Source: Antedon mediterranea (lineage: Eukaryota > Echinodermata > Crinoidea > Comatulida > Antedonidae). From it: 64,000 nucleotides of DNA. The stretch is from the NCBI RefSeq assembly GCF_964355755.1, contig NC_092679.1, positions 7,378,001-7,442,000 of the forward strand, in the 5' to 3' direction. The notes beneath the pieces are model-generated. The model made no database searches and was not told the origin of the DNA. It saw only the letters and a program-made list of their open reading frames with translations. A program made the position numbers and the translations under genes. Below, piece after piece: positions 39,701 to 62,704 of the stretch; the stretch's first letter is position 1; each line of letters starts with the position of its first letter.

Positions 39701-42700
39701 AAGTACGCAACGAAATGACGTATAGCTCAACGCAAGCGAGTTGACCAATGACAAGCGACAGGTCGAATAATCCATCGTCTGTGATTGGTCATGCTTGTGT
39801 TACGATTACCTCTTGCAGGCCCGTAGCCAGGGGGGGTTTTTATGGTTCGGGCGAACCCCCCCCCCCCCCCTTTACAGCGAACCCCCCTTAACCGACTGCG
39901 AACCCCCATCCCCGACATGCCCAATACCTCACCCTCATCTCCGAAAATCGTCCAAATACGTGCCCCACAGTACAAAAAGTTGTTCGTAAATTAAAAAATT
40001 CGTAAACTCGTTCGGAATAACTCATACAGTACCTTCTTCCCTGTATGAGCGTACTTCGAGCGATATAGTCTGTAAATTTCTAAGAGTTGCAAATGAATTG
40101 CCGATTTTAACCTGAAAAATAAATGTTTGGTCCCTGCATTCAACATGATATTGACGCGTCTCACAGCGAGCTGGGGGACGAACGATTCGTACAAAGGAAA
40201 GGACACCGCCAGACAACTGCGTACCAATTGTTTAGATCACTGGCAGTCAGGCAGCATGCATAAAGTATATAGCCTTCCGACATACATCAGTATTTATGTG
40301 TGGCTATGAAGTATAATGTATCATAGAGGATTATAGTGAATATTAATATTTTACACTATAATATCTATGGTATCATGTACTGTAGTTCACATTATGGCAT
40401 CCGATTATATTTTTCTAGACCACCAGCCGATACGTACTCAAATGTATCAATATCACCTATTTACATTGGCATATTTAATTTCCTCAACAAATTGCTGTAA
40501 ATAAATATTATAGATAGAGCTATAATAAGAATTGCATTTTCCTTCACCCAGTGTGCTTTTTTCGGGGCTTCTCCTAGACGTACGTTCGCATTGAACTTGA
40601 ACGCAAAACAAAATATCGAGTAAAATGATCTAACAATCGGCGGTTCCGCACAGAGCACGCGCATCTAACATACGGCAACAAATGTTATCGTTTAAATAGT
40701 CCACGAGTCCAAGTACGATCGTTTTGCTCATTGTAGCATGCTGCATGAGAGTGTCTTTTCCGGCCATCTAGGGGTGTCATTTAACAAAATTTGCTTCGCC
40801 GATACGTACTCAAATGTATCAATATCACCTATTTACATTGGCATATTTAATTTCCTCAACAAATTGCTGTAAATAAATATTATAGATAGAGCTATAATAA
40901 GAATTGCATTTGCCTTCACCCAGTGTGCTTTTTTCGGGGCTTCTCCTAGACGTATGTTCGCATTGAACTTGAACGCAAAACAAAATATCGAGTAAATGAT
41001 CAAACAATCGGCGGTTCCGCACAGAGCACGCGCATCTAACATACGGCAACAAATGTTATCGTTTAAATAGTCCACGAGTCCAAGTACGATCGTTTTGCTC
41101 ATTGGTAGAATGCTGCATGAGAGTGTCTTTTCCGGCCATCAAGGGGTGTCATTTAACAAAATTTGCTTCGCCGATACGTACTCAAATGTATCAATATCAC
41201 CTATTTACATTGGCATATTTAATTTCCTCAACAAATTGCTGTAAATAAATATTATAGATAGAGCTATAATAAGAATTGCATTTTCCTTCACCCAGTGTGC
41301 TTTTTTCGGGGCTTCTCCTAGACGTACGTTCGCATTGAACTTGAACGCAAAACAAAATATCGAGTAAATGATCTAACAATCGGCGGTTCCGCACAGAGCA
41401 CGCGCATCTAACATACGGCAACAAATGTTATCGTTTAAATAGTCCACGGGTCCAAGTACGATCGTTTTGCTCATTGGTAGCATGCTGCATGAGAGTGTCT
41501 TTTCCGGCCATCTAGGGGTGTCATTTAACAAAATTTGCTTCGCCTCAGGCCCCACCCCAGGGGGGGGGGGTAGGTATGGGGGTGGGGTGACCCAAATACT
41601 TAGTGTGCGAACCCCCCCTTGACAGATCCTGGCTACGGCCCTGTCTTGCGCTGCGACATACTGAAAATCAAGCTTTATACTATATTTAAAACTTAAACGT
41701 TGAAAAATTTATTTATTAAACTTTCACATATTCTAGATGTTATCCATACAGTTGGTCCAACTGTCAACGATGATGTGAAGGAGATCCACCAAAACCTTCT
41801 AAGCAGTTGCTACCACGAATGTATGGAAGTCGTCAAAATGCATAATGAACGATACTACCGGATAAGCAGATTCCGGGAAAGAGAACGCAGCGAAGACGAG
41901 AAGAATAAGAAAACGTTACAAAAACTAGGCTTGGAAAAAACTGAAGTTGAAGATGATAAACAACCAATTGGAATAGAGTATTCTGAGGCGTCACAGGGGA
42001 ACGTGTTCCTGAAACCACCAATCAAATCGGTAGCGTTCCCATGTATATCAACCGGTATCTATGGTAAGCTTCTCTTTCATTTCTTCCCTTCTTCCTTCCC
42101 ATTCTTACCTTGTGTATTATGTTAACTTTGTTTTGTCTAATATGTTACTTTTATTTCTTCCACTGCATTTTCCCATGATCCTTATCTTGCGTCTAAAACC
42201 ACTCATTCTTTTTATCTAATAGGTTACCCTCATGACCAAGCGGCTGATGTTGCAATGATGACGGTACGAAAATGGTTGGATAATCCGCATAACTACGAAG
42301 CGGTAAGTCATTGTTATTCATTTCTGATATATCAAGGATAATGAACTTATCTATCTGATCATCTTTCTTTGAAATTGAAGAATAACTTGCACTCGTTCAT
42401 CTCCTCTTTTTGACAGATCGAAGACCTGGATATGATAATAATATGTGTAATGTCCGAACACGACAAACGTATTTATAACGAGACCCTTCCAAAATACTTT
42501 CCAATTTACGATGGAAAACTTCGGAAAACTAGTCACATCTCCAGTAGTACTCCTCCGAGAGTAAAGGCAAAAGTAGTCGCCGCTGCAGAGAAGAGAACAG
42601 CGTTAAACAAGGCAGCAGCAGCCGAAACACACGAAGCAAAGGTCACCACGTTTAGTAGCAGTCCTGGTGCTCACCCTAGGACACAGGAAACAAAGACAAC

Positions 42701-44145
42701 TACATTTAGTAGCAGTCCTGTTGCTCATCGACAACAAGCGACGTCGGCGACTCCTCCTCCTGTCGTTGGCAGACACAGTGGAGCAATAAACACACCTTCA
42801 CAATACACAACTCCGGGAAATGACGATACGTACACTGAAGTCACATTTCATGAACCAATACAAGCTCAGAGACAAACGGTGCAAACGTCTCAACAACCTC
42901 ACGTCCACTATGAGAATCAACCTTCTCCGGCATCAGTACATCCGATATCGCCACTAGGGGAAAGTAAAGAGGCTAAACAGCAACGAAAGAAGGAAGAACA
43001 ACAAGCAAAGAAAGAGGCAAAACTAGCAAAGAAACAACAAGCTAAAGTAGCAAAGAAAAACAAGAAATCTAAGAAGGGATTCGAAACTGAAGACTTTGCT
43101 CCGATGGATATTGATTTCGACGAAGAAATGCTTAGTGCTGCTCCTGTCAAAAACGTTACTCCTTCAAAGACGCAAAAGGTAGCCGGTACAACGCCAGTGC
43201 AGAAGACGCAAGTACAATCTAACGTTCAAATGAAGCGGGCACCACCACTTATCCATGCGTCACCACCAACTCACGCGTCGTCACAACCCATACACGCGTC
43301 ACCTCCCGTTCATGCGCCAACGCCAGTCTACGCAACAGTTAACAAAACGTCAACTCATCATCACCACGAACGAGAGAAAGTGTTGTCGGGCCGCTACCCC
43401 GATGCTGGTGTAAATGGAAGATCACCACATAATGTTTCGATAGACGTGCATACACAGAGATATTCAAATGGTAAGCTATCGTGATTGTTTTCTTCATGAT
43501 TCTTTGCCACTATTGAAGCATGTGTTGAAATATATATGGGTTGATTATATGGGATGGGATGAGATTCAATAATGGAGAGAGATCGAGACAAAAATGAATG
43601 AATGAACAAAAGAACGAAAGAGAATGGGTGTACGGATGAATGAATGGACGACTGAATCTTAATCAAGCCGCAGACCAATATATAGTAATGTCAATATAAT
43701 AGAGTTTAACGAGCATCCATGCAAACAATTCTTTTGTGACCCAATCATTACCTCATCACTACTAATATTACATAATTTGTTGTTTTCAGATGCAGATATT
43801 GATGAATATGAATACGCAGATGATGATGATGATGATGATGATGATGACGGCGACGATATGCCTCCACCACCTGGAAGCTATGACGATGAGGTGTTTCACC
43901 AGGATTCGCCACCACCACCACGTCCCCCACCACCTCAAAACTACTCATACGACAACGATTTGCCACCTCCACCACCACCACAGAGTTTACCACCAGAAGA
44001 TGACTTACCACCCCCACCACCACAGAGCTTACCACCCGAAGATGAATTACTACCCCCAGTCCCACGAGGTTCTCCCTCACCTTTACGCAACAATGGAACA
44101 AGCGATAACGTACCTAAAATGGCAATTGTAACAACAATTTACTAG
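36793..44145 (+). CDS. MacroD-type macrodomain protein with charged insert and proline-rich tail
   Basis: Eight in-phase exons, 827 residues: 36793-37066, 38251-38373, 38713-38961, 39466-39486 (21-nt microexon), 41737-42063, 42223-42302, 42417-43470, 43790-44145. The Ser/Arg-rich N-terminus has an in-frame duplication (STDRMNTTSRSY twice). The macrodomain spans roughly residues 130-390: LGDITSLCVDAIVNPTNGPL, GGPGLNGEIHSRAGPL, GYWLPAKYVIHTVGP, VAFPCISTGIYGYPHDQAA, DLDMIIICVMSEHDKRIY. This order matches MACROD1/2, which bind ADP-ribose and remove mono-ADP-ribose from Asp/Glu. The loop usually reading GGGGVDG is GGPGLNG here, replacing the Asp implicated in catalysis with Asn. About 50 charged residues split the fold before VAFPCIST. 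The long disordered tail has Lys/Gln-rich, poly-Asp and PPPPP segments that could bind SH3, WW or EVH1 domains. It may act as a reader rather than a hydrolase (inference). Confidence 0.92.
37990..38130 (-). mobile_element. Possible tRNA-derived SINE fragment
   Basis: The minus strand has a good box B (GGGTCCTGGGTTCAAGTCCC near 38059-38078) at tRNA-like spacing. The box A half is degraded. It lies in intron 1 of the macrodomain gene. Confidence 0.35.
39571..39702. mobile_element. MITE, GCTCTGTCTACACTATC family, copy 1
   Basis: Inverted ends ACTCTGTCTACACTATTAAA and GTTTGATAGTGTAGACAGAG enclose about 90 bp including ATGTGCCCATAT. It lies in the macrodomain intron, just upstream of another inserted element. 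Confidence 0.85.
39816..41643. mobile_element. Non-autonomous TIR element carrying three 372-bp tandem repeats
   Basis: The ends CAGGCCCGTAGCCAGG and (reverse complement) CAGGGCCGTAGCCAGG match at 15 of 16 positions. A 5-bp direct repeat TCTTG flanks the element (39811-39815, 41644-41648). Next to each end is a C-run or G-run with the word GCGAACCCCCC. No transposase frame is seen. The CAG start is hAT-like, but a 5-bp duplication is not typical of hAT, so the superfamily is left open. It occupies most of the intron after the 21-nt microexon. Confidence 0.85.
40426..41541. repeat. 372-bp tandem repeat, three copies, inside the TIR element
   Basis: Units start GCCGATACGTACTCAAATG at 40426, 40798 and 41170 and end TTAACAAAATTTGCTTC. 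They are near-identical, with a few substitutions and 1-bp indels. Minus frames of 67-89 codons through each unit are shared only because the units are copies. Confidence 0.95.
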
Positions 44146-45701: not shown

Positions 45702-48700
45702 TCAGAGATTTTGCCAGTCAATATGAAGCAAGTTATTATTTGCTTCCAGTTTGTGAATCACCTCGCCAGGTATACCATGTTGTAACCAAAGAATGTAAAG
45801 TTTATGGTACAAATCTTGACAAAGTCTTAAAGGATTTCCCCTCCTACAGAATAAAATAAAAGTAGTTTAAAACAAACCTTAGTACTAAATCTACTGCAGT
45901 AACTTGAATCAATAGGTATATCATAGGGAGTAGCATACCAAGTACTGCAGTAATAAAATAACATATAGTACTTCTGAATCACAACATTCAGGGATGATTG
46001 CATAGTGAATAAACCTGAGTAAATACAGGTTTGAGGTACACCATGCGACACTCCTTGCCTTCTTGAAACACATGGTATACCATAAAAACCTGACTTTGCT
46101 AGAGTAACATACCTTAATCCAACATCCGATTCCCCATAATCATCAAGGTAAGGTGGCGTGTGAAAACAACCTCTGGACATGGATGACACCAGAAGTAATT
46201 GGCATTCTCTTACTCTGTAATAGTAATATAAAACATACTTTTTTAAAACACTTTGTAATTTATTGTTTGAAGGTTTGCATGGCGAAATCAAATGTTGATA
46301 TAAAGTTTGCGGTACACCACATACATTAGTTCTGAAAAGAAATGTTGAGTTTCTCGACGTTTCGATCAATATGCTTTGATCGTCCTCGAAATGAGAATGC
46401 AGAAAGTCCAGGAAACTGGGAATATAAAGTGGAATATAAGTGGAATAGGGTGGAAGTGGTGTGAAAGCTAGTCATTTTATTTCACTTTGTAATTGTCCCT
46501 TTGTTGAGAACCTTGTAAAATCAGCCAAACTGACAGTGTCAGCCTCATGATATATGGTAAAACTAATAATGAATATTGATTGATTAATGACGTCCGAGTC
46601 AGATGTAATTATATTAATTAAGGTTAATTATGTTTCATTATATATTATATGGGTTACTAAAAAATGTTAGATGGTTTGTCCTAGTCTGACGTAATTATCA
46701 TTATTAATGTTACTTATAATGTTAAGTTATATCATTGATTAATTACTAATAAATGTTATATCACTACTAATTACAGTATCATAATTAATGTTTTTTACCT
46801 TAAATACATTCCAACTCCTGAACTACATTCTAAAGCATGAGCCATACATGCTCCTACTGTTTCATTGTCAACATCAGTCTGGCAGCAATAGCTTTGTGAA
46901 CACACTAGCTTACCACAAACCAAACACATTGCTGGTGCACGGGTTTCACCTTGGATACCACTGGACTTTGGACAGCTGTTTAATTAAAGCAATAACAATT
47001 CATATATTAATTTAGTAATTTGTTTTATTGAATACTGTAGTTCTATGCTCTAACATAAGGTTGTAAGCAACCAAGCCCAAAGGGGATAGAGGATGTTTTC
47101 TGGAAAAAGAAAATTACATTATTGTACACAACAATGATTTTATTGAATTTAATTATCCAGTGGTCCCTGAACAAGGACAACCTACAAACCATACCCTCCA
47201 AACCCATACCCCACTCGTTTTTTGCTCTGAAGTTCCCTTTTCAAATTAATGACTAGCAGCATAAGTGATGGTAAAAAGCTCTGTCTACACTATCAAACTT
47301 TATGTGACAATAAATGTGCCCATAAATGAATTCGTTGACATCATATCACTACCATATTTGGGCATATCACTATCATATGTGCATATTTTTGATAGTTTGA
47401 TAGTGTAGAAAAAGCTTTTCTAGCCTAGTTCATGATGACTTTTAGGCCTAACTAGCATAGCTTACGATGACTTTTCCTCTTTCGTGGAAAGCTTCATTTC
47501 CTGGCTACAGGCTTAGCTACTGCTAAAAATGATGAATTAATTTAGACTTACACAAATGAGGCAACCTGGTTCATAAGGTCACTATAATCATGTGGTAACG
47601 ACATAAACTTATTTGGCTGCATCGGATATCTAGCAAAACAAAGACAAATATTGTCACCGTAACAAAATTAATAATATCTTGAATTTGGGCTAAAAATTGT
47701 ACAAATATCTGGCAAATTAGAATTAAATTGAGATCAGGTTTAATCCTGTTATGGTTGCAGACCTGTCTGCCATATTACAGTGTGCTGGCCATAGTCTTTT
47801 TTTTTTCAATTTATTACTGAGGCTAAAAAAGTACAGAGTAGAAATAAACAAAAGAAAAAAAGTGGTATACCTAACAAACAAAGTGTTTTGATTATTCAAT
47901 CTTTCTTGAGTTGTTGGATGCAAACACCACTTTTGAAGTAACTCATGTACACCAGGAATAAACTGAGAATCAAACAAACTGGCAAGATTTGTAGGGACTG
48001 CTAGATATCGACACAATACGCTAAATTCATCAAAGATGTTGACTGCAAAAGGAAGAAAATTACATTATTAAGCTCTGTCTACACTATCAAATTTGATGTG
48101 CCCTTATATGGACATGATGATGTCATATCACTACCATATTTGGGCACATCACACTTTTTTATCGAAATAGACAGAGCTTTATAAACAGCAATGTTATTCC
48201 TAAACAGGAAACTAGGGACCACTGACTTTTTTACATAGTAAGTAAAATACATTATTACTTTTTATATTTTTGTAAATACTTTATTCATTTTTGTTAAATC
48301 ACTTTTCTTCATTTTTAGTTAAATCTTAGATACTTAAATTATTTTGGATGCATATTCTTTCAAAAGTGTAGATTCCAAATAAATTATAATTATAATAATT
48401 GCGGCCCAAAATAAAAATGACAAGAAATAAGATTCAAACTAAAAATCGGTGGATAGAACATTATGTTACAAAACACCATAGTTACTTTATATTATGTTTA
48501 TATAAAATCAACATACTTCTCAATTCTAATGGAAATGATGCTGCAGACAGCGAATAGAAGAACAAAGCTGAACACCGTAGAAATGGAAGGCAGGATTTAA
48601 TTACGTAATTCCAAAGGTCAAAGGCAGATGGAACGCCTCTCTTCACTCTGCATAAACAAAAATGGAGGAATGACAGATACTATAGAAAAGGTTGGAAAAA

Positions 48701-51700
48701 AAGCAGAAAAAAAGAAATTTTCCAAGCAAACAGAATACTGACTAACCATAATTTACTTACCCTGCTAATAACCATAATTCTTTTAACACTTTCTGCAAGT
48801 TTTTGGCTTCTTTACAGTACATATCATCACTTTCTTCTTCAAATAAACTTCCATCATCTATTAATTTATAAAAGAAGTATATATAAAGATAACCTTTATG
48901 TGATATTCTTTAAGATGTGAGATAAGGAAGGGTGGTAATACTCCTCCTGGAAGAGAAAGATAGTCATGCTGAAATGGTAGCATTTAAAGCAGTGAAGTGT
49001 CATGCACTAATATAATAACAAGCTTTTGTTTTGGCCAGTAGACGAATGTTAACAGACCAAATGAGAATTACGTTCCTCAACCTTCACAATCTGATGAATT
49101 ACTCGCTTTTTAAAAAAAACAATTATGATTGAAAGAAAAGCTCACTATTATATGTCCTATCAATTGCCCAAAGATTAAGGAAGCTTTCTACTGAATGACT
49201 GACAACCAATGCATGTCATGTTAATGCAGGGACATTGTGATGCATTTCCTCGTCCAACCGGTTTTATGGTTTCTAGGTTCGGGTGACCAACAACGATCGT
49301 TGCGTATCAAAAGCCCTATTGATAAACAGTTGTAATATCTTGTATCTTACCTTCTGGCAAATCACAAGTCAACAGAATCTGCGTGAGATGCCCTAAGAAA
49401 GCAAGTTTCATGATGTGTCCGTTAACGATTGGATCGGTACACACAGCGGCATTCTGCAGCTCTTCCTGCGTGTCCTTAAGCACAGGCATTGAAAAGCATA
49501 GGCTTACCAGCAGTGTAAATATATCAACATCTAAGATACTAGGCCCAGCTTGACTTGTTGGAAGTAACACTGCAATGAAAATAAGGGAGAGAAAATAATC
49601 TGATGAAAGGAACATATTCCTCAATCAGTCAGTGGGCTGCCTCTCACAAGTTTTGATTTCACCCCTCTTACGCTCTGTCTACACTATCAAACTAGTTTCA
49701 CAAAAAAGTGTGATGTGCTCAAATATGGTAGTGATATGCTTAAATATGGTATTGATATGACATCATCATAAATGGGCACATCACATTTTTTTGTCAGAGA
49801 AAGTTTACACAAATTATTGTACTTCATTATTTATGAATTTAAACGTTGCTTTTGACTTGACTTTTCTAACAGTACACAATGAGGTACCAACAGCTAAATC
49901 AATACTAGGTTATAAAGATGCTTTTAATGGCTAGATCCATAACATAACTTTCATAAAAAGGTTTACCATTTAACAGCCTGATGAGATGTGCTCGCACATG
50001 TTGATGGTTATACACACGGATACCTTCGGCTCCTAGTCTTACCAAAGCATCAAAACAATCAGCCTGTCTACTTGGAAGTGATCCAAACAATGGCTTCTCC
50101 TCAACGCGAAGATAAAGCTCTGAATATAAAGAGAAACAGATAGCAATATTATACAACAACCTATACCAAATTCAACAATGTCATCAAATCCCATTCAAAT
50201 ATTACATAGCATAAAATGCAGACTAACGTAGAAGTATTTCATTATTAAAAGATACATTGTTCACTGTAAAAAAATTTCTTTTTTGTTGAATACTTATGCC
50301 AATTTAACATCACATAATGGTTTTGTCTTTATGTAAGTGAAATCATATTTTTGTTCTGTTTTATTTTATGAAAGTAAAATGGTCTATTCAAATCTGATTT
50401 TATTAATCTTCATTTTTCATGGTTTTTTTCTACAGCTAAAACTACAGCAATTAGAAAATCTAACCTGCTGTTTGGATAGTGTAGGCTACAGCTTCCCAAC
50501 ACATGATTGGTATGCGTTTATTAGTATCATCAGGCATCACATTCAAACCAACCTAAAAGAAAGAACATTAGATGTGTCATCCCTTCTGAAGTATCAACCT
50601 AAACATAAAGACCTTGTTAAGTACACGTCTTATTTGTAGCTTACTTACCGTGTAAATGGACATGGAAAATGTCTTCAACATTTCAGTTTTGTCAACTGGT
50701 GGATGTCTGTAAAAATTAAAAACAAATAGTTTACATTGTGGAATATAGTAGTAAAACAAAATAAGAATACTGAAAGTAAGATTGAGGTATTGATCTTACT
50801 TTGTACTTGATTGTTGGTTGAAACTTAGTAATCGCCAAACTTCAGAACTTGAGAATCCACTGGTGCTCTTAGAACTAAAAGGTCTTTTATGATCTGAAAT
50901 AAAAAAAGAAACAAAATGTTTGCTATTAACTCAAATATTAATAAGTAAGAAATGTATATTAAAGGTATGCATTTGAATGAACTATAAACCCTAATGATGA
51001 AATTAACTATTTATACATTTCTGAGTTGAGAACTTTTCTATATCAAAGAAGTATTATTTTACAACTAAATAGTTAACTAGGTCAAACTCCTCAAAATGAC
51101 TGCAGTACAATAAAGTACACTTTGATTGACTTTGTGTTGGAGTTGACTCTCTAGTTTTAACATAGTAACTCTACCGTTTATTCAGAACATTGGTTTTCAA
51201 ATCAAACTCACCATCTTTTTTCTGTTTAGCAGGAGTCTCATCTGTTGCTGTGGTGGTATCCATCTCGCGTTCTGCCTTCTCCTTGGCTGCTTTATCTTCC
51301 TTGAGCACACCCCCTATCGTTTTTATAAGCTGTTCAAGACTACTACATGCTTTACTGTAATAAGATAATTATAAGTACAAAGTTATAGTTATTCAGGCAC
51401 AGCAAAGTGCATTATATACTGTTAGTAATCCAAAGACAAAATATTGAAAAAATGACAATACTGTGGGCATCAGTGGTTAGACCTCAATGGAGATACAAAT
51501 AAAATAAGCACAGAAAAATGAACATGCTGTGGGTATCTGTGGTTAGATCTCAATGGAGAATAAAGAGAATAAAATAAGCAAAAAACTAATCAAACAATAA
51601 AGAAAAAAAAAACAGTCAGAAAGAAATTGTAGAGCTTTAGGGTAAAACTTAACCTTTCCTAAGTATGTTACTGTTACTCTTATATTTTATGTAATAATGT

Positions 51701-54700
51701 ACAAAGAAGTCTCTTTGTCTGATTTGGCCACTCTGATATATATTATTTATATAGATTTATATGGAAGACAACTAGTATATTGTATATGATTTACCTTTTG
51801 TTAACCGGTTTAATTTGAGGAAGAAGTGTTATAACAGTGTTGCCTACAGTTTCACAGAGTGGGCACAGGAACTCATTCCTGCTCAAATCATAGCTGAGGT
51901 GACGTCGGAATCGACCTGACCTTTTGTTCTCTTTGGCAACTAGTGAATCAGTGTATCTGAAAACAAATGTTTACATGATTTCAATCACTGTATGGTTATA
52001 TACTGTGGGTATAATAATAATAACCCCTATTTATTTGTTTTGCACCTTGTAAATGCAATAAATATAACCTGCCATCAAATCTTACATTTGCCAACAAGTA
52101 GCATGCATAATGTGACCACAACTGCTCACGTGTGTTCCCCAATAAAGGTCAGTTGACTTCAACAGGGGGTCAAATGAATCTGAAACAACAAACATCAAAT
52201 ATTGTATGCCCCAACTGAAAATTTGTCTTAATATTTATTATATACTATCGTGATAAATATTATACTATTAATAAATTAATAATGTATCTTAGGCAAGAAG
52301 CTTTGCTTATGTTTCCCTCTCTCCACCCAGGTGTATAAATGGGTACCTGGTTAGGTCAAAGCACAGACTGCACTGATTCCTGGCTTCAACATTATGGAAG
52401 TATGTTTCCATGCTTGTTTGATCAAAATAACTGGGGCAATAATGTGAACATAAATATATATGGAATTTGTGTTATATAAATTATTATTATTACATTAAAA
52501 CAAAACACTTACCTTTATCAACAATTTTCTTGTCTCTGGCTCTTGACAATACAGATGATCTATAAAAAAAAAAAAGATTACACACTGAGTCATTTGGGTC
52601 CCTATCAATGGATTTGGTTCTTTTTAGAGAAAATTATGTTTGTCTGAGATTTTCTGGTATTTCAGTTTGGGAAAGTAAAAACACTGTACAAATATTTGTA
52701 TATATTTACCGTTGAATAAAAGCAGTTAGAACCATAACAGGAGCAGCATGTTTGATCAACTCTTCTTCCTGACATAAGATGCACGTTACTTGTGAGGGCT
52801 CAACCTCTGAGACAGTTGTGTGCTCTGGGCCTAGAGCTATTGCATATGACACCGGCCCATCACTGCAGTGTAAAAAGGTTTTTTTTTTAATTCAGTGATG
52901 GCTAATTATCATCATCATTTATAATGATTAATTATGTAAAATCAACTGTTATTTATTATTAATAATAAGCAGAAATATAACAGGGCATTTTATTAGAATC
53001 CAAACAGTCTTTAATTTTAGTTCAGAAATCAGTACAACAATTATTATAGGTTGACAAATAGATGATAAATCTTAAGTTATGCAAATAGAAGCTTGAAAAA
53101 CAACCCAGCCAAAATAGTGAATTTACCAACATGTTGTTGCAGTACATCAAAAAAGTTGTAGAGGTGAAGTGAATTGAACATTTGCGTTATAACTTAAGTG
53201 AATTGAACATTTGCGTTATAACTTAAGTGAATTGAACATTTGCGTTATAACTTAAGTGAATTGAACATTTGCATTATAACCTTACTCAACATCCATTGAA
53301 ATGAATTGAACATTTGCATTATAACTTACTCAACATCCATACTTGTCGTGGATGACTTCCTGTCACTTTGTGAACTTGAAACCTCAAACAAATTTGGATT
53401 CTTCTTGATAAACGACTTCTGCATGTTTGACATTTGTGCCATTATACGTTTTCTTCGCTCTTGCGCCAACTGTGCTTTGGTTTTCTTTTCCTCTTCTTTT
53501 TTACTGTTGTCAACGGAAGGCACGTCAGGCTGCGGACTTGTTCCACAGGTTCCTTTGAGTTTCAAAACCTCTGACAATTTCTAACAAAGAATATGAAAGT
53601 GATAAAACAACGCTTTTTTACAGTTTACATAATGTACATACGTACGATATTAATATGGTTTAATTTAGTAAAACATAATATAAATAAAATAAATGTACCT
53701 CCAACACCCATTGCACAAGGTCTTTGTACACTTCAATACGTTGATTACCAACCAATGCTTGTAGATTTTGTATTAAGCTAGGATTGCCTTTAAAAAAGGA
53801 GGAAAAGAGAGATTTATGGGTAGCACATAGATGTATTATACATCTAGAGAATCAACTGTGTTGGAGTTAACTCTAGTTTTTTAATAAGATAAGATAAAAC
53901 TTTAATAACCTTATGGTCTAGTATTACGTTGTTAAATTTACATAAAACACTCAGTTATTCAATTCAAATAACAAGGTACAGTATCTTTATTAGTATACCA
54001 TGTTTGTATGGCAGTTATTTCATGGTGAATTGAACTCTGACCTTTTAAAGCCTTTGCAGTGAACTGGAAATTCCCTGACTTGTGATACAATCGCTCTTCT
54101 TCCAGTAGTGCTAAGCCGGTCAGATAGAGAGCCTAAAAGAAAGTGGCATTGTTTTATGAAGTATGTTGTATCCAGATTTATTTAACAACATCCAATAACT
54201 AATGTAACTAAGAATGAACTCACCTTGTGTGCAAGACTCTCTGACCAGAACTTACTGGTTGCAGTTCTTGCAAGCGTTGTGCTGACTATGTGCACGAATA
54301 CATCACAATCAAGCAATCGTACTATGTTGCTATAGTTTGCACATAGAGAAGGGGGCAAGGGTGGTGCCATGGCGGTAACTACAAAAAAAAAAACCAAAAT
54401 ATTATTTAGACAAATGTAAAAACCAGAAATAGACTACATAAGTCTGATTGAGGTTCAAACAATATAGAAATCAACTTATATATAAATCATACTGTAAATT
54501 ACAGAAACAGTGCTCATATTCGGAACATGATCTCATAATCGCGTTGAGCATAGCTCATTGGCGAAAGTATTTTTTTTAGTTGTATGAACCTTGTAGCAAA
54601 GACATAATATCCACACACACACAAAGTAGTAAAGTAAATAAAGGTAGTTAATTTGCCACAATTTATTTAAAGATTTGCAAACAATAATTACAGTGCATAT

Positions 54701-57700
54701 ACTTGCTAGTGTGTGTGCTACATCTTACTTAGTCTCAACTTACCTTCTAAAGACTTGACTTGGCAAGTTTTCCTTGCCTTTCTTTGATATTCTTCTGACT
54801 GAAATTGAAAAAGAAAATTACAGTATCATCATGTTGAACAAGTAGGATTTGAAAATTGATCCCGATCAGGTCTATTCGGAATTCACACTATTGAAACAAC
54901 ATTCCAATTTGGTTTAGGCTCTATTACAATTAGCATCCTGCAACTTAAAATGAATGAATAGCATGTACTAATCATACCTACACACTGGCCACTACTATGT
55001 ACTAATCATACCTACACACTGAGGGCCACTACTATGTACTAATCATACCTACACACTGAGGTCCACTACTATGTACTAATCATACCTACACACTGGCCAC
55101 TTCTATGTACTACCTGTAATCATACCTACACACTGAGGGCCACTACTATGTACTAATCATACTTACACACTGAGGGCCACTACTATGTACTAATCATACC
55201 TACACACTGAGGGTCACTACTATGTACTAATCATACCTACACACTGAGGGCCACTACTATGTACTAAATCATACCTACACACTGGCCACTACTATGTACT
55301 AATCATACCTACACACTGAGGGTCACTACTATTTACTAATCATACCTACACACTGAGGGCCACTACTATGTACTAAATCATACCTACACACTGGCCACTA
55401 CTATGTACTAATCATACCTACACACTGAGGGTCACTACTATTTACTAATCATACCTACACACTGAGGGCCACTACTATGTACTAATCATACCTACACACT
55501 GAGGGTCACTACTATGTAATAATCATACCTACACACTGAGGGCCACTACTATGTAATAATCATACCTACACACTGAGGTCCACTACTATGTACTAATCAT
55601 ACCTACACACTGAGGGCCACTACTATGTACTAATCATACTTACACACTGGCCACTACTATGTACTAATCATACCTACACACTGAGGGCCACTACTATGTA
55701 CTAATCATACCTACACACTGGCCACTACTATGTACTATAAATCATACCTACACACTGAGGTCCACTACTATGTACTAATCATACCTACACACTGAGGTCC
55801 ACTACTATGTACTAATCATACCTACACACTGGCCACTACTACGTACTAATCATACCTACACACTGAGGGCCACTACTATTTACTAATCATACCTACACAC
55901 TGAGGGCCACTACTATGTACTAATCATACCTACACACTGGACTACTACTATGTACTAATCATACCTACACACTGAGGGCCACTACTATTTACTAATCATA
56001 CCTACACACTGAGGGCCACTACTATGTACTAATCATACCTACACACTGAGGGCCACTACTATGTACTAATCATACCTACACACTGGCCACTACTATGTAC
56101 TAATCATACCTACACACTGGCCACTACTATGTACTAATCATACCTACACACTGGCCACTACTATGTACTAATCATACCTACACACTGAGGGTCACTACTA
56201 TGTACTAATCATACCTACACACTGGCCACTACTATGTACTAATCATACCTACACACTGGCCACTACTATGTACTAATCATACCTACACACTGGCCACTAC
56301 TATGTACTAATCATACCTACACACTGAGGGCCACTACTATTTACTAATCATCCCACACACTGAGGGCCACTACTATGTACTAATCATACCTACACACTGG
56401 CCACTACTACGTACTAATCATACCTACACACTGAGGGCCACTACTATTTACTAATCATACCTACACACTGAGGGTCACTACTATGTACTAATCATACCTA
56501 CACACTGGCCACTACTATGTAATAATCATACCTACACACTGAGGTCCACTACTATGTACTAATCATACCTACACACTGAGGGCCACTACTATGTACTAAT
56601 CATACCTACACACTGAGGGCCACTACTATGTACTAATCATACCTACACACTGGCCACTACTATTTACTAATCATACCTACACACTGGCCACTACTATGTA
56701 CTAATAATACCTACACACTGGCCACTACTATGTCACTACTTACTTTGGATTTATCTGCTCTAGTGTAGTGGTAGAAATATGGGCTATAATGAGTCAGAAA
56801 TCTTTGGTTCAATTCATAAATTCCTCTGCCAGTTGTACCAGATTTTCTGAAATATAAACATAACAAAAATTAAACGTTCATGGTGTAACTTTCAAAAGTT
56901 TTTCCTAATGAATAATTTATCTTCGTCAGAAAATCAAATCTGTTAGGTTACATGCTTCACAAACTAAAAAAAACTCACATCATTGGATATACACTTATTT
57001 TCAAACGGCAAATAGATTCAAAACATTGCATACTGTGGGTCTACATAGTTACAACATACTTACTTGAAAACCCCCACTAAATTCACAACATCTTCTGCAC
57101 CTGTCTCTTCTTGGGCCTGCAAAATCCATCAAACATTGTACAAATAAAAGGCAAAAAGCAAGTAACAACACCTCATTTAAGAGGCCCTTTAACTTACTTG
57201 AAATTGGCAACGAGGTTAATGACCTTGTCCATGCCTGTTTCATGATGGTACTGAAACATAAGTAGATTAGCTCACTGTGTGTATATACAATTGCATAATA
57301 AATAAGGGAATCCCAATTTTGAATTGGGAATTCCCATTTAATTCCTGTTCTATGACACAATGAGCTATATTCAATACTGCCAGTGAAACCATAAACCTTT
57401 CCTAATTTAATAAATACAGTTAGTATCCTACACAGTTCCACTACTAAAAATTAGTCTCAAAAACAGATTAATTCATTTATATGGTACATTATTTGTTTGT
57501 TCTTTATTAGCTTGCTTAAAGTAACAAATTCAGAATAGACTGCCATTTAAGGGATGATTCTCTTATATTGATTACCTCCTCGTCTCAAAATAATTAAATA
57601 CATTTTAAATTAGAAGATATTCAGTAACAATTTTAGAATGGATCATTCCATTTTGTTGAATGGGTTGTTTACTTACATCTTCTGGTAAGGATTTGTTGAT

Positions 57701-60700
57701 TTCACTATGAGCCATTGGTGACATACACAGCTGGTGGATTACTTCACGCTTCACTCGATCCGTGTCCGATATCTCACCAACCCCGACTACATAACGCTCA
57801 CCTTTTATGGTCAGGTATCAAACAGATGTAATACATTATTATGTTTATTATTGTTTTATTATTTATTTATCTATTCTATAGATTAATTGTTTATATATTT
57901 CTAATTAGAGATATTTATACTTTTTGTCTAGACGTAACATTCTTAGGTTATTGTTATTTCGTTTGTTTTGTTGTTTTTTTATTTACATGAATGTAACACC
58001 TCTATTATTGGTGAATTTGTTGGTTGAAAAAAATATGGACTTACAAACAATAATAATAAGCAATTCCAGAAACTCCTTGAGCAAAGTAACATAACGCTGT
58101 CTAGCTTGTACTTCCTAAAAGTATAAAACACAAATATTATTAATGAATTGTTTTTATCACTGTCACATTCTTTATTATTAAAGATGTATTGTCCCTTTGA
58201 CTAATTAAAAAAAAGTTTAATCTTTTTATATTTCGAAAAAAAGTGGTTCATTTTGAAGTATCATAATAGTTATTAACTTTCACCAAAAATTAGTTGAAAA
58301 AAAATATTTTAACCGAAATACGGACATTTTTTTGTTCAAAAAATAACTTTGACTTCCAGTCAAAGTTTTCGATCTCATAATGCAACAGGCTTGTTTGGCT
58401 ACTCTGTATGCATAATCATAAAACTTCCTCGCATTCTGTGTGAAAACACCTTCTCAACCGCGACAAGTTGTAAACAATCCTAATTAGCATCATGCATAAT
58501 GCATACTCGTAGTTTGAAATCTTTGTTTACTTTCACTCGTGACGATTTTCCAGATGAAATGTAAACAAATTAATTTACCTGTTAATTAAGTAAACTTGTT
58601 GTTTTTGCCTCGAATTTTCAGCTTAAAGTAAATAACTTTAATATTACCTTGATATGGCCAATTTATATTTAGAATACTTTTTTTTCATTTTTTGTGTTTC
58701 AAGGGACAATACATCAGGCAGCTGATAGAGCACTATCTTTAATATCACCATTGCCACTAATGACGGTGGTGATGATATTAGTGGTGGTTGTGATCGTGGT
58801 GGTGATGGTTGTGATCGTGGTGGTTGTGATTGTGGTGGTGGTGGTTGTGATCGTGGTGGTGATGATTGTGATCATGGTGGTTGTGATCGTGGTGGTTGTG
58901 ATCGTGGTGGTGATTAGATTACATAAGATTACAAACAACTTACATCTGCTGATAGGGCCTGTGTATTGTACTGCCTATCCATGCATTGAACAAGATCAAA
59001 TCGATTCAACACAGTAATTAAGAACTCATCAGGTGATACTAAGGCAGCTGATGTCTGAAAAATGCAATAAACAAATATAGATTTCTATATCTTACTAGGT
59101 AGAACTTTAAGTCATAATCATTTAATTAATTTTGATACCAAACAATTAATGAAATCAAGGTTCACTCAAAGTAAATACCAAAAATGTGTAGAATCATATA
59201 CAATAGAACCCATATAAAGTGGACACCTTCAGGACCCTGCAAAGGGTTCCCTGAATAGAACCCATATAAAGTGGACACCTTCAGGACCCTGCAAAGGGTT
59301 CCCTGAATAGAACCCATATAAAGTGGACACCTTCAGAACCCTGCAAAGGGTTCCCTGAATAGAACCCATATAAAGTGGACACCTTCAGGACCCTGCAAAG
59401 GGTTCCCTGAATAGAACCCATATAAAGTGGACACCTTCAGGACCCTGCAAAGGGTTCCCTGAATAGAACCCATATAAAGTGGACACCTTCAGAACCCTGC
59501 AAAGGGTTCCCTGAATAGAACCCATATAAAGTGGACACCTTCAGAACCCTGCAAAGGGTTCCCTGAATAGAACCCATATAAAGTGGACACCTTCAGAACC
59601 CTGCAAAGGGTTCCCTGAATAGAACCCATATAAAGTGGACACCTTCAGAACCCTGCAAAGGGTTCCCTGAATAGAACCCATATAAAGTGGACACCTTCAG
59701 AACCCTGCAAAGGGTTCCCTGAATAGAACCCATATAAAGTGGACACCTTCAGAACCCTGCAAAGGGTTCCCTGAATAGAACCCATATAAAGTGGACACCT
59801 TCAGAACCCTGCAAAGGGTTCCCTGAATAGAACCCATATAAAGTGGACACCTTCAGGACCCTGCAAAGGGTTCCCTGAATAGAACCCATATAAAGTGGAC
59901 ACCTTCAGAACCCTGCAAAGGGTTCCCTGAATAGAACCCATATAAAGTGGACACCTTCAGAACCCTGCAAAGGGTTCCCTGAATAGAACCCATATAAAGT
60001 GGACACCTTCAGAACCCTGCAAAGGCTTCCCTGAATAGAACCCATATAAAGTGGACACCTTCAGGACCCTGCAAAGGGTTCCCTGAATAGAACCCATATA
60101 AAGTGGACACCTTCAGGACACTGCAAAGGGTTCCCTGAATAGAACCCATATAAAGTGGACACCTTCAGGACCCTGCAAAGGGTTCCCTGAATAGAACCCA
60201 TATAAAGTGGACACCTTCAGGACCCTGCAAAGGGTTCCCTGAATAGAACCCATATAAAGTGGACACCTTCAGGACCCTGCAAAGGGTTCCCTGAATAGAA
60301 CCCATATAAAGTGGACACCTTCAGGACCCTGCAAAGGGTTCCCTGAATAGAACCCATAAAAAGTGGACACCTTCAGGACCCTGCAAAGGGTTCCCTGAAT
60401 AGAACCCATATAAAGTGGACACCTTCAGGACCCTGCAAAGGGTTCCCTGAATAGAACTCATATAAAGTGGACACCTTCAGGACCCTGCAAAGGGTTCCCT
60501 GAATAGAACCCATATAAAGTGGACACCTTCAGGACCCTGCAAAGGGTTCCCTGAATAGAACCCATATAAAGTGGACACCTTCAGGACCCTGCAAAGGGTT
60601 CCCTGAATAGAACCCATATAAAGTGGACACCTTCAGGACCCTGCAAAGGGTTCCCTGAATAGAACCCATATAAAGTGGACACCTTCAGGACCCTGCAAAG

Positions 60701-62704
60701 GGTTCCCTGAATAGAACCCATATAAAGTGGACACCTTCAGAACCCTGCAAAGGGTTCCCTGAATAGAACCCATATAAAGTGGACACCTTCAGGACCCTGC
60801 AAAGGGTTCCCTGAATAGAACCCATATAAAGTGGACACCTTCAGGACCCTGCAAAGGGTTCCCTGAATAGAACCCATATAAAGTGGACACCTTCAGAACC
60901 CTGCAAAGGGTTCCCTGAATAGAACCCATATAAAGTGGACACCTTCAGGACCCTGCAAAGGGTCCCCTGAATAGAACCCATATAAAGTGGACACCTTCAG
61001 AACCCTGCAAAGGGTTCCCTGAATAGAACCCATATAAAGTGGACACCTTCAGGACCCTGCAAAGGGTTCCCTGAATAGAACCCATATAAAGTGGACACCT
61101 TCAGGACCCTGCAAAGGGTTCCCTGAATAGAACCCATATAAAGTGGACACCTTCAGAACCCTGCAAAGGGTTCCCTGAATAGAACCCATATAAAGTGGAC
61201 ACCTTCAGAACCCTGCAAAGGGTTCCCTGAATAGAACCCATATAAAGTGGACACCTTCAGGACCCTGCAAAGGGTTCCCTGAATAGAACCCATATAAAGT
61301 GGACACCTTCAGAACCCTGCAAAGGGTCCCCTGAATAGAACCCATATAAAGTGGACACCTTCAGGACCCTGCAAAGGGTTCCCTGAATAGAACCCATATA
61401 AAGTGGACACCTTCAGAACCCTGCAAAGGGTTCCCTGAATAGAACTCATATAAAGTGGACACCTTCAGGACCCTGCAAAGGGTTCCCTGAATAGAACCCA
61501 TATAAAGTGGACACCTTCAGAACCCTGCAAAGGGTTCCCTGAATAGAACTCATATAAAGTGGACACCTTCAGGACCCTGCAAAGGGTTCCCTGAATAGAA
61601 CCCATATAAAGTGGACACCTTCAGGACCCTGCAAAGGGTTCCCTGAATAGAACCCATATAAAGTGGACACCTTCAGGACCCTGCAAAGGGTCCCCTGAAT
61701 AGAACCCATATAAAGTGGACACCTTCAGGACCCTGCAAAGGGTTCCCTGAATAGAACCCATATAAAGTGGACACCTTCAGGACCCTGCAAAAGGTTCCCT
61801 GAATAGAACCCATATAAAGTGGACACCTTCAGGACCCTGCAAAGGGTTCCCTGAATAGAACCCATATAAAAGTGGACACCTTCAGAACCCTGCAAAGGGT
61901 TCCCTGAACAGAACCCATATAAAGTATAATAAAACTTTATTGCTTCAATGTTCGTTTCTCGGAAAGTGTCCTCTGAATAGGTGTATCCCCCTAATCGTAG
62001 TGTCCCAAAAGAAGGGTTTTATTGTAGTATAAAATGTGTGTCATACCTGAAGCATTAGGATGTCTCTATCATAAGTTTCAATTTGAAACCTTACACTGTT
62101 GTAGTTATAAAGCTGAAAAAAAAATGAATGCTAGATCAACATATCAATCATAAAGCATGTTAATTAATTGGATACTAGATGTTAACTGTTAGACTATGTA
62201 TCATCAAGTCCAACAAACTCTCATTGTGTAAAATAGAGCCAACTTGAGCCAAATAAATGAGTCATCAAGAGCAAAATAATTAAAAGAAATCTTGGATTCA
62301 TTCACAACCTTATTTGACATACAAAGATGTTACCTGATTGAGTAATGCATAGCCGTTACGCCGCCATTGACCTGCCTGACATTGTGCTTTTAAAACTTGG
62401 ATTCTCAATGCATCTTCCATCAATTCCATTGGTGTAAGGGCTCCCTGAAAGACGGATATGACAATGTTTCTTTTATGTCCAGATTTTGTAAATAGCATGC
62501 AATTTATAATTAGTATTTTTATTAATTTAATTCAAAAACAAATTGACATAATACTTTACATCTTTGATTGGTCAATATTTATTTTCTGGTAGTGTGGGAA
62601 TTTCACTAGCAAAAATATTGTGATGTTACTATGGTTACCTACCATTGGTAAAAGGCCTTCTTTGTAGAAGTGTAAATTATATTTTCCAAGGTGTAGATGC
62701 AAAC
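45702..62704 (-). CDS. UBR1: UBR1/UBR2-type N-recognin E3 ubiquitin ligase, C-terminal two thirds (5' end off the right edge)
   Basis: Thirty coding exons with one of the alternative 53-nt pair used, 1149 residues in continuous phase: 62704-62643, 62445-62334, 62112-62047, 59054-58944, 58114-58046, 57801-57677, 57250-57198 or 57116-57064, 56846-56744, 54798-54744, 54378-54224, 54132-54042, 53787-53699, 53580-53330, 52862-52710, 52559-52513, 52179-52086, 51956-51795, 51354-51212, 50893-50800, 50706-50649, 50552-50465, 50119-49967, 49569-49351, 48857-48761, 48647-48517, 48042-47871, 47629-47552, 46975-46799, 46214-46113, 45843-45702. Landmarks: QAGQWRRNGYALLNQ, RRKRIMAQMSNMQKSFI, the RING-H2 pieces VTCILCQEE / SSCGHIMHATCW / FLCPLCE, EEKPLFGSLPSRQADC, and the C-terminal cap CLVCGKLVCSQSYCC, GCFHTPPYLDDYGE and terminal HIDWQNL. 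The family recognises N-degrons and ubiquitinates them. The UBR box should lie beyond 64000. The end resembles UBR1 more than UBR2. Confidence 0.95.
46230..46400 (-). mobile_element. Dispersed repeat, possibly the end of a Penelope-like element
   Basis: 46258-46333 is the reverse complement of 7208-7290 (core GTACCGCAAACTTTATATC). Next to it the minus strand has GATCGAAACGTCGAGAAACT after a small hairpin (GATCAA/TTGATC), a motif I associate with Penelope-like element ends. No coding part is seen. Confidence 0.4.
47275..47416. mobile_element. MITE, GCTCTGTCTACACTATC family, copy 3
   Basis: Begins AAGCTCTGTCTACACTATCA and ends GTTTGATAGTGTAGAAAAAGC; UBR intron. Confidence 0.88.
48068..48179. 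mobile_element. MITE, GCTCTGTCTACACTATC family, copy 4 (shorter)
   Basis: Begins TTAAGCTCTGTCTACACTAT and ends AATAGACAGAGCTTT. It lacks part of the right inverted end; UBR intron. Confidence 0.85.
49670..49808. mobile_element. MITE, GCTCTGTCTACACTATC family, copy 5 (right end lost)
   Basis: The left end CGCTCTGTCTACACTATCAA is intact. The copy stops after GTCAGAGAAAGTTT without GATAGTGTAGAC; UBR intron. Confidence 0.85.
52270..52495. mobile_element. SINE-like element with CCAGGTGTATAAATGGGTACCTGG hairpin
   Basis: GGCAAGAAGCTTTGCTTATG is followed by CTCTCCACCC, then the 24-bp near-palindrome (52327-52350) and GTTAGGTCAAAGCAC. It ends in an ATTATTATTA simple tail. I know this hairpin from SINE 3' domains of marine invertebrates; family assignment is from memory. 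It lies in a UBR intron. Confidence 0.5.
53166..53340. repeat. 34-bp tandem repeats merging into a duplicated exon end and splice donor
   Basis: GTGAATTGAACATTTGCGTT..ATAACTTAA repeats about four times in the UBR intron. The last unit is larger and includes CTTACTCAACATCCAT, the minus-strand exon end plus donor, present at 53282-53297 and again at 53325-53340. Confidence 0.85.
54955..56735. repeat. 34/37-bp minisatellite, about 50 copies, in a UBR intron
   Basis: Units read TACTAATCATACCTACACAC then TGAGGGCCACTACTATG (37 bp) or lack three bases (TGGCCACTACTATG, 34 bp); the two types are interspersed. The array starts within about 10 bp of the donor of exon 56744-56846 and fills the 1.95-kb intron. 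Confidence 0.96.
57064..57116 (-). CDS. UBR1: UBR gene mutually exclusive exon, downstream alternative
   Basis: 53 nt with a GCAG acceptor and GTAAGT donor, encoding AQEETGAEDVVNLVGVF plus two bases. It continues KSGTTGRGIYEL in the next exon. It is homologous to the exon at 57198-57250 and has the same length and phase. Confidence 0.9.
57198..57250 (-). CDS. UBR1: UBR gene mutually exclusive exon, upstream alternative
   Basis: 53 nt with a TTTCAG acceptor and GTAAGT donor, encoding YHHETGMDKVINLVANF plus two bases. It shares ETG..V.NLV..F with the other exon. Only 81 bp separate the two. Confidence 0.9.
58760..58920. repeat. (GTGGTGATGGTT)n simple repeat
   Basis: GTGGTT/GTGATC/GTGGTG units over about 150 bp in a UBR intron. 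The long valine-rich or threonine-rich frames through it are artefacts. Confidence 0.9.
59201..61927. repeat. 52-bp minisatellite, about 52 copies
   Basis: Unit GAATAGAACCCATATAAAGT, GGACACCTTCAGGACCCTGC, AAAGGGTTCCCT. Copies are nearly identical. The main variant is GGACCC versus GAACCC, which occurs in runs; rare changes include GGGTCCCC and AACTCATA. Confidence 0.98.
59201..62024. mobile_element. Tc1/mariner-like MITE swollen by an internal 52-bp minisatellite
   Basis: Left end CAATAGAACCC and right end GGGTTTTATTG are inverted with one mismatch and flanked by TA (59199-59200; 62025-62026), the target of Tc1/mariner elements. The sequence next to the left end (CATATAAAGTGGACACCTT) and the right end (GTGTCC..) also has mariner-MITE character. 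Almost all of the 2.8 kb is the minisatellite. Confidence 0.75.

Follow-up and report, generated by a model that had tools for sequence, protein, structure and literature searches.

A gene for a UBR1/UBR2-type ubiquitin ligase in the crinoid Antedon mediterranea very probably carries a pair of mutually exclusive exons, designated here A and B, which appear to derive from an old tandem duplication of a single 53-nt exon. The pair was detected in the window, the whole stretch of 64,000 nucleotides that was analyzed. According to the explanation favored here, one ancestral exon of 53 nt was duplicated in tandem long ago, and splicing would place exactly one of the two copies into the working messenger. 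The choice would swap the segment that leads up to the wing of the winged helix, with the conserved positions kept, and the resulting forms of the ligase may differ in ubiquitin transfer or chain elongation. Ligases of the UBR1/UBR2 type read N-degrons, and loss of UBR1 leads to Johanson-Blizzard syndrome. Locations of the exons and of the downstream domains can be seen in Table 1; the coordinates, equal lengths, phases, peptides and short middle intron given in a first-pass annotation were all reproduced, and the AG acceptors and GTAAGT donors are present.

Table 1. Exon pair, flanking features and downstream domains of the UBR1/UBR2-type gene (positions in the window)
Feature	Position	Strand	Length (nt)	Description
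Upstream flanking exon	57677..57801	-	125	Phase 1 to 0; GERYV...KSLPED; N-terminal part of winged-helix domain; aligned to UBR2/UBR1
Intron before exon A	57251..57676	-	426	GTAAGT...CAG
Putative alternative exon A	57198..57250	-	53	Phase 0 to 2; peptide YHHETGMDKVINLVANF; nearer to UBR2/UBR1
Intron between A and B	57117..57197	-	81	
Putative alternative exon B	57064..57116	-	53	Phase 0 to 2; peptide AQEETGAEDVVNLVGVF; more acidic, less UBR2/UBR1-like
Intron after exon B	56847..57063	-	217	
Downstream flanking exon	56744..56846	-	103	KSGTTGRGIYELN...ADKSK; C-terminal part of winged-helix domain
RING region	51795..52862	-		Exons 52862-52710, 52179-52086, 51956-51795; same gene, downstream of the A/B pair
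PRT6_C-type C-terminal region	46112..49606	-		Matches 49606-49358, 48619-48515, 48031-47861, 46977-46777, 46222-46112

Exons A and B share the donor context TTTCAA/GTAAGT (the slash marks the exon end), and each is preceded by an AG acceptor. The acceptor of the upstream flanking exon, CATAAAAG, is without a clear pyrimidine tract. On conceptual splicing, A alone or B alone leaves the frame open through KSLPED...FKKSGTTGRG. The first-pass annotation had joined both exons to KSLPED and KSGTTGRG; both joins are in frame, with the correction that the codon split at the downstream junction itself encodes Lys, so that the join reads F-K-K-S-G. With the standard splice sites, the length of 53 nt, not divisible by three, lets the frame continue only when a transcript contains one exon and not the other. 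With both included, the frame meets a stop within exon B (122 nt from the end of the 103-nt downstream exon); with both omitted, the stop is 70 nt from the end of that same exon. Further coding exons lie 3' of this exon (56846-56744), and an early stop with coding exons further 3' is expected to cause decay of the message; transcripts with both exons or neither would thus probably enter nonsense-mediated decay. The statement that splicing must choose one exon agrees with these stops at the standard sites. As worded it is too strong, because double inclusion or skipping could occur and be followed by decay, and because two weak cryptic donors within exon A, at 57224 (AAG/GTCATT) and 57212 (CTC/GTTGCC), could in theory give rise to in-frame messages that combine portions of both exons.

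The two peptides are identical at 8 of 17 residues and differ at the other 9 (BLOSUM score 38). When the exon A peptide was scored along the two strands of the window (127,882 positions), scores of at least 38 were found only at A itself (93) and at B (38), and the third-best score was 25. The pattern AG-N53-GT occurs 574 times in the window (231 on the plus and 343 on the minus strand); 226 of these sites are open, and the best score beyond A and B is 11. Among 14 exons of the gene, only A and B have a homologous, open AG...GT neighbor of the same length within 4 kb, and the best neighbor score for the other tested exons is -9; these 14 have both ends set by eye, out of 16 exon starts listed. 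In an all-against-all comparison of open frames from the 5' part of the gene, other pairs were not seen among the matches listed, in which tandem repeats dominate. Within the genome, the 1,058-base region gave no match other than its own location, and no second copy of the locus was found. Equal length, compatibility of splice sites and frame, and homology are published predictors of mutually exclusive exons, shared by 0.56% of other Drosophila X-chromosome exons (90/16,180; PMC3228551).

Both exons look as if they have been kept by selection on the protein, judging from how their differences are distributed. Across the 17 codons, A and B differ at 7 first, 4 second and 13 third positions, and the excess at the third position over the rest is significant in this small sample (one-sided Fisher p = 0.0034, 17 codons). 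When the 24 differences were placed randomly in 20,000 copies, 47% were stop-free, and 0.02% had a BLOSUM score of at least 38. Six of the eight shared residues are encoded by different codons in A and B, and the NG86 method gave a dN of 0.56 and an undefined dS, the synonymous rate being beyond estimation; the duplication is thus suggested to be old. B keeps the conserved E-T-G, V, V and F but differs from A elsewhere, in charge as well (YHH...DK in A, AQE...ED in B). Chance homology of exon B was ruled out by the window-wide scan together with the codon-position and random-change tests.

Several domains support the identity of the gene. In a three-frame search with the sequences of solved structures (9wbv and 9wbw, which we take to be human UBR2 and UBR1), the interval from 62.4 to 49.4 kb of the window aligned piecewise to UBR2 residues 642-1464, the RING among them. 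A number of pieces have low domain scores (-2.8 to 5 bits), and parts of UBR2 had no match, so that the assignment to the UBR1/UBR2 type rests on the order of the pieces and on the strong ones. The Cys/His motifs of the RING, CILCQEE, SCGHIMHATCW and FLCPLCE, aligned to UBR2 1090-1229, and the RING exons place the pair upstream of the RING, as the first-pass annotation had proposed. Two zf-UBR matches (26.6 and 28.6 bits, cut-off 25.2) lie on the same strand of the same contig, 6-7 kb past the window end (C10:7448056-7449254); from strand and contig they are presumed to belong to this gene. Five PRT6_C matches were found on this contig and strand, two of them above the cut-off of 26.2 (72.1 and 40.3 bits). 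By its predicted UBR box, winged helix, RING and PRT6_C region, the gene is a UBR1/UBR2-type N-degron ligase. The earlier description of a homologous exon pair in such a ligase is borne out by these domain matches and by the BLOSUM score of 38, which is unmatched elsewhere in the window.

One UBR1/UBR2-type gene was found in the genome. The only other winged-helix match is at C1:41016306 (17.9 bits, below the cut-off), between a UBR box and PRT6_C matches, and this locus is therefore probably UBR3. In the 2,101 bases inspected on one strand, out of 3,500 around the match, no next exon was seen after its winged-helix exon, and comparison of all 3,500 bases with the solved structures in one frame gave no match. 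A tandem array with units of about 73 bp (L004, 600-2250) follows this probable UBR3 winged-helix exon. A single 18-residue match to a prokaryote contig, Methylomonas, was taken as chance.

The spliced forms were compared with the UBR1-like winged-helix family PF22960 (cut-off 27 bits). The A form scored 94.5 and the B form 88.8 bits, and an artificial protein without the swapped segment scored 60.4 bits. Both forms align to UBR2 and UBR1 across all 94 residues. From the type of fold, we infer that the swapped segment is mostly the helix before the wing.

Another explanation is that A is the working exon and B a regulated poison exon, with A+B transcripts entering decay and thereby setting the amount of ligase, and with B alone being rare. 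The stop of the A+B transcript does fall inside B with more exons downstream, and BLOSUM scores against UBR2 and UBR1 are higher for A (43 and 46) than for B (33 and 41). However, B is constrained as a protein and has the right frame and phase, none of which a poison exon needs, and the B form fits the domain nearly as well as the A form (88.8 against 94.5 bits), which makes this explanation improbable. It is more improbable still that B is a dead duplicate whose splicing has been lost: B is indeed the copy less like UBR2 and UBR1, but it is stop-free with AG and GTAAGT intact and core residues conserved, and the excess at the third position (p = 0.0034) and the fraction of random copies this similar (0.0002) led to rejection of this candidate.

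The manner in which exclusion is achieved in the putative A/B pair may involve the short middle intron. In alpha-tropomyosin and OGDH, a branch point too near the upstream 5' splice site prevents joining of two exons. The steric threshold proposed for this distance is about 50 nt (PMC7969005, PMC5740500). The same arrangement, with the branch point of B too near the 5' splice site of A, is compatible with a mutually exclusive pair and is a real possibility here, with a chance somewhat short of even. The 81-nt intron is the shortest of 8 measured in the gene (81, 118, 129, 217, 221, 345, 397 and 426 nt), and the 55 nt before its end are an AG-free zone. One branch candidate in this zone is at a distance of 35 nt from the 5' splice site and has a pyrimidine-rich stretch after it. 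On the other hand, the other candidates in this zone are at 53, 59 and 69 nt, the best-scoring one there being that at 53; the top score overall is at 21 nt but stands before an AG, and this site is therefore less likely to be used. All candidates are predictions, scored with our own weights. The steric exclusion proposed in the first-pass annotation thus agrees with the candidate at 35 nt and disagrees with those beyond the threshold, and the spacing of 81 nt may contribute to exclusion. A Dscam-like competition between intron RNA pairings as the means of exclusion is very doubtful: no supporting signal was found in the two intron pairs tested by duplex energy with 20 shuffles each, as 15 of 20 shuffles were as low for the upstream-middle duplex and 4 of 20 for the middle-downstream duplex.

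Exons of this kind are well known in other genes. According to PMC5224494, exons Ab and 3 of vertebrate U2AF1 are, like A and B, short tandem duplicates (67 nt) with a length not divisible by three, and transcripts with both or neither contain stops, as they do here; in U2AF1 these transcripts are lowered by decay. Unlike A and B, the U2AF1 exons belong to another gene and domain, their isoforms differ by seven residues compared with 9 of 17 here, and they are supported by RNA evidence, whereas the crinoid pair is predicted from the DNA sequence. Vertebrate OGDH exons 4a and 4b are likewise an ancient duplicated pair with a short intron between them, and their branch points are close to the 5' splice site (PMC7969005). 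The OGDH branch points have been mapped (25-41 nt in human), whereas those of A/B are only predicted, and three of the four candidates from the AG-free zone are at distances greater than 50 nt. UBR2 and UBR1 (9wbv, 9wbw) have the same winged-helix and RING region, with one segment each at the swap site, ENKETGMESVIEAVAHF and ENNETGLENVINKVATF. To the extent of the literature searched, the site of the putative pair, the winged helix of an N-degron ligase, would be new, and its kind is familiar from U2AF1 and OGDH.

Human UBR1 was also compared with the crinoid gene. The numbering of the UBR1 structure fits human His774 in PMC3172311, where the donor of human UBR1 exon 20 is placed at c.2254. 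The crinoid upstream flanking exon starts after the first base of a Gly codon, which is the same codon position as in human UBR1 exon 21. Exon 26 of human UBR1 starts at c.2740 (PMC5702574). Exons 21-25 thus correspond to c.2255-2739, which leaves room for 125 + 53 + 103 + 204 nt; this span fits a 53-nt exon at the swap site and is no proof of it. Splice variants c.2379+1 and c.2432+5 of human UBR1 would mark a 53-nt exon at that place, and the literature search gave no confirmation of these variants.

No report of mutually exclusive splicing at the swap site was found in the open-access literature searched. One cancer paper names a mutually exclusive event for human UBR2, in a passage that does not give its place (PMC7227031). 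Other passages on UBR2 concern an early-termination isoform and an exon-skipping entry, and one mentions it beside UBR4. The term 'UBR' is absent from the main texts of PMC5740500 and PMC9741552, and passages of PMC12324394 and PMC5533463 contain nothing on the swap site.

Tandem repeats are abundant in the introns of the gene. A 37-bp array of about 49 copies (54963-56738) occupies the intron directly after the downstream flanking exon, and is reported to end on the final base of the GTAAGT donor of that exon. A 52-bp array of about 52 copies with 98% matches (59202-61925) lies in an upstream intron and yields repeated minus-strand open frames. Another intronic repeat, GTGGTGGTTGTGATC-like with a period of 36 bp, is found at 58781-58914. 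Long open frames on the plus strand at 41697-43484 belong to a neighboring gene, and by eye appear to resemble a macro-domain protein.

The position of the swapped segment offers some indication of function. In yeast, the winged helix is close to the donor ubiquitin, and changing the winged-helix Lys965 together with two cap-helix residues caused a modest loss of chain elongation, according to a review (PMC11668491). In the 94-residue segment, the counterpart of Lys965 in the alignment is Ser62; the swapped exon ends with the split-codon Lys two residues earlier. The residue itself therefore lies outside this exon and is Ser rather than Lys in the crinoid protein, and similarity to yeast Ubr1 is weak; the B form scores slightly higher (19.4 bits) than the A form (16.5 bits), so that either copy may be the one nearer to the ancestor. 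Because the yeast winged helix is near the donor ubiquitin, we tentatively consider it possible that the main difference between the A and B forms concerns the transfer of ubiquitin or the elongation of chains, and not the choice of N-degron. The first-pass annotation had suggested that the swap could tune substrate or partner choice; ubiquitin transfer is the better-grounded guess, because the exon lies in the winged helix next to a position implicated in yeast chain elongation.

A natural pair of isoforms differing only in a winged-helix segment close to the donor ubiquitin would provide a ready test of the role of this domain in animals, and the pair would add a ubiquitin ligase to the genes whose core module is tuned by duplicated exons. 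A wider and rather unlikely proposal is that of an ancient switch, in which one crinoid gene makes two UBR1/2 proteins that read the same degrons and carry a different segment beside the donor ubiquitin, and in which vertebrates have split the job by gene duplication into UBR1 and UBR2. If this were true, tissues or stages would control how fast or how long ubiquitin chains grow, with recognition unchanged, and vertebrate UBR1 and UBR2, with one version of the segment each, would do the same job via two genes.
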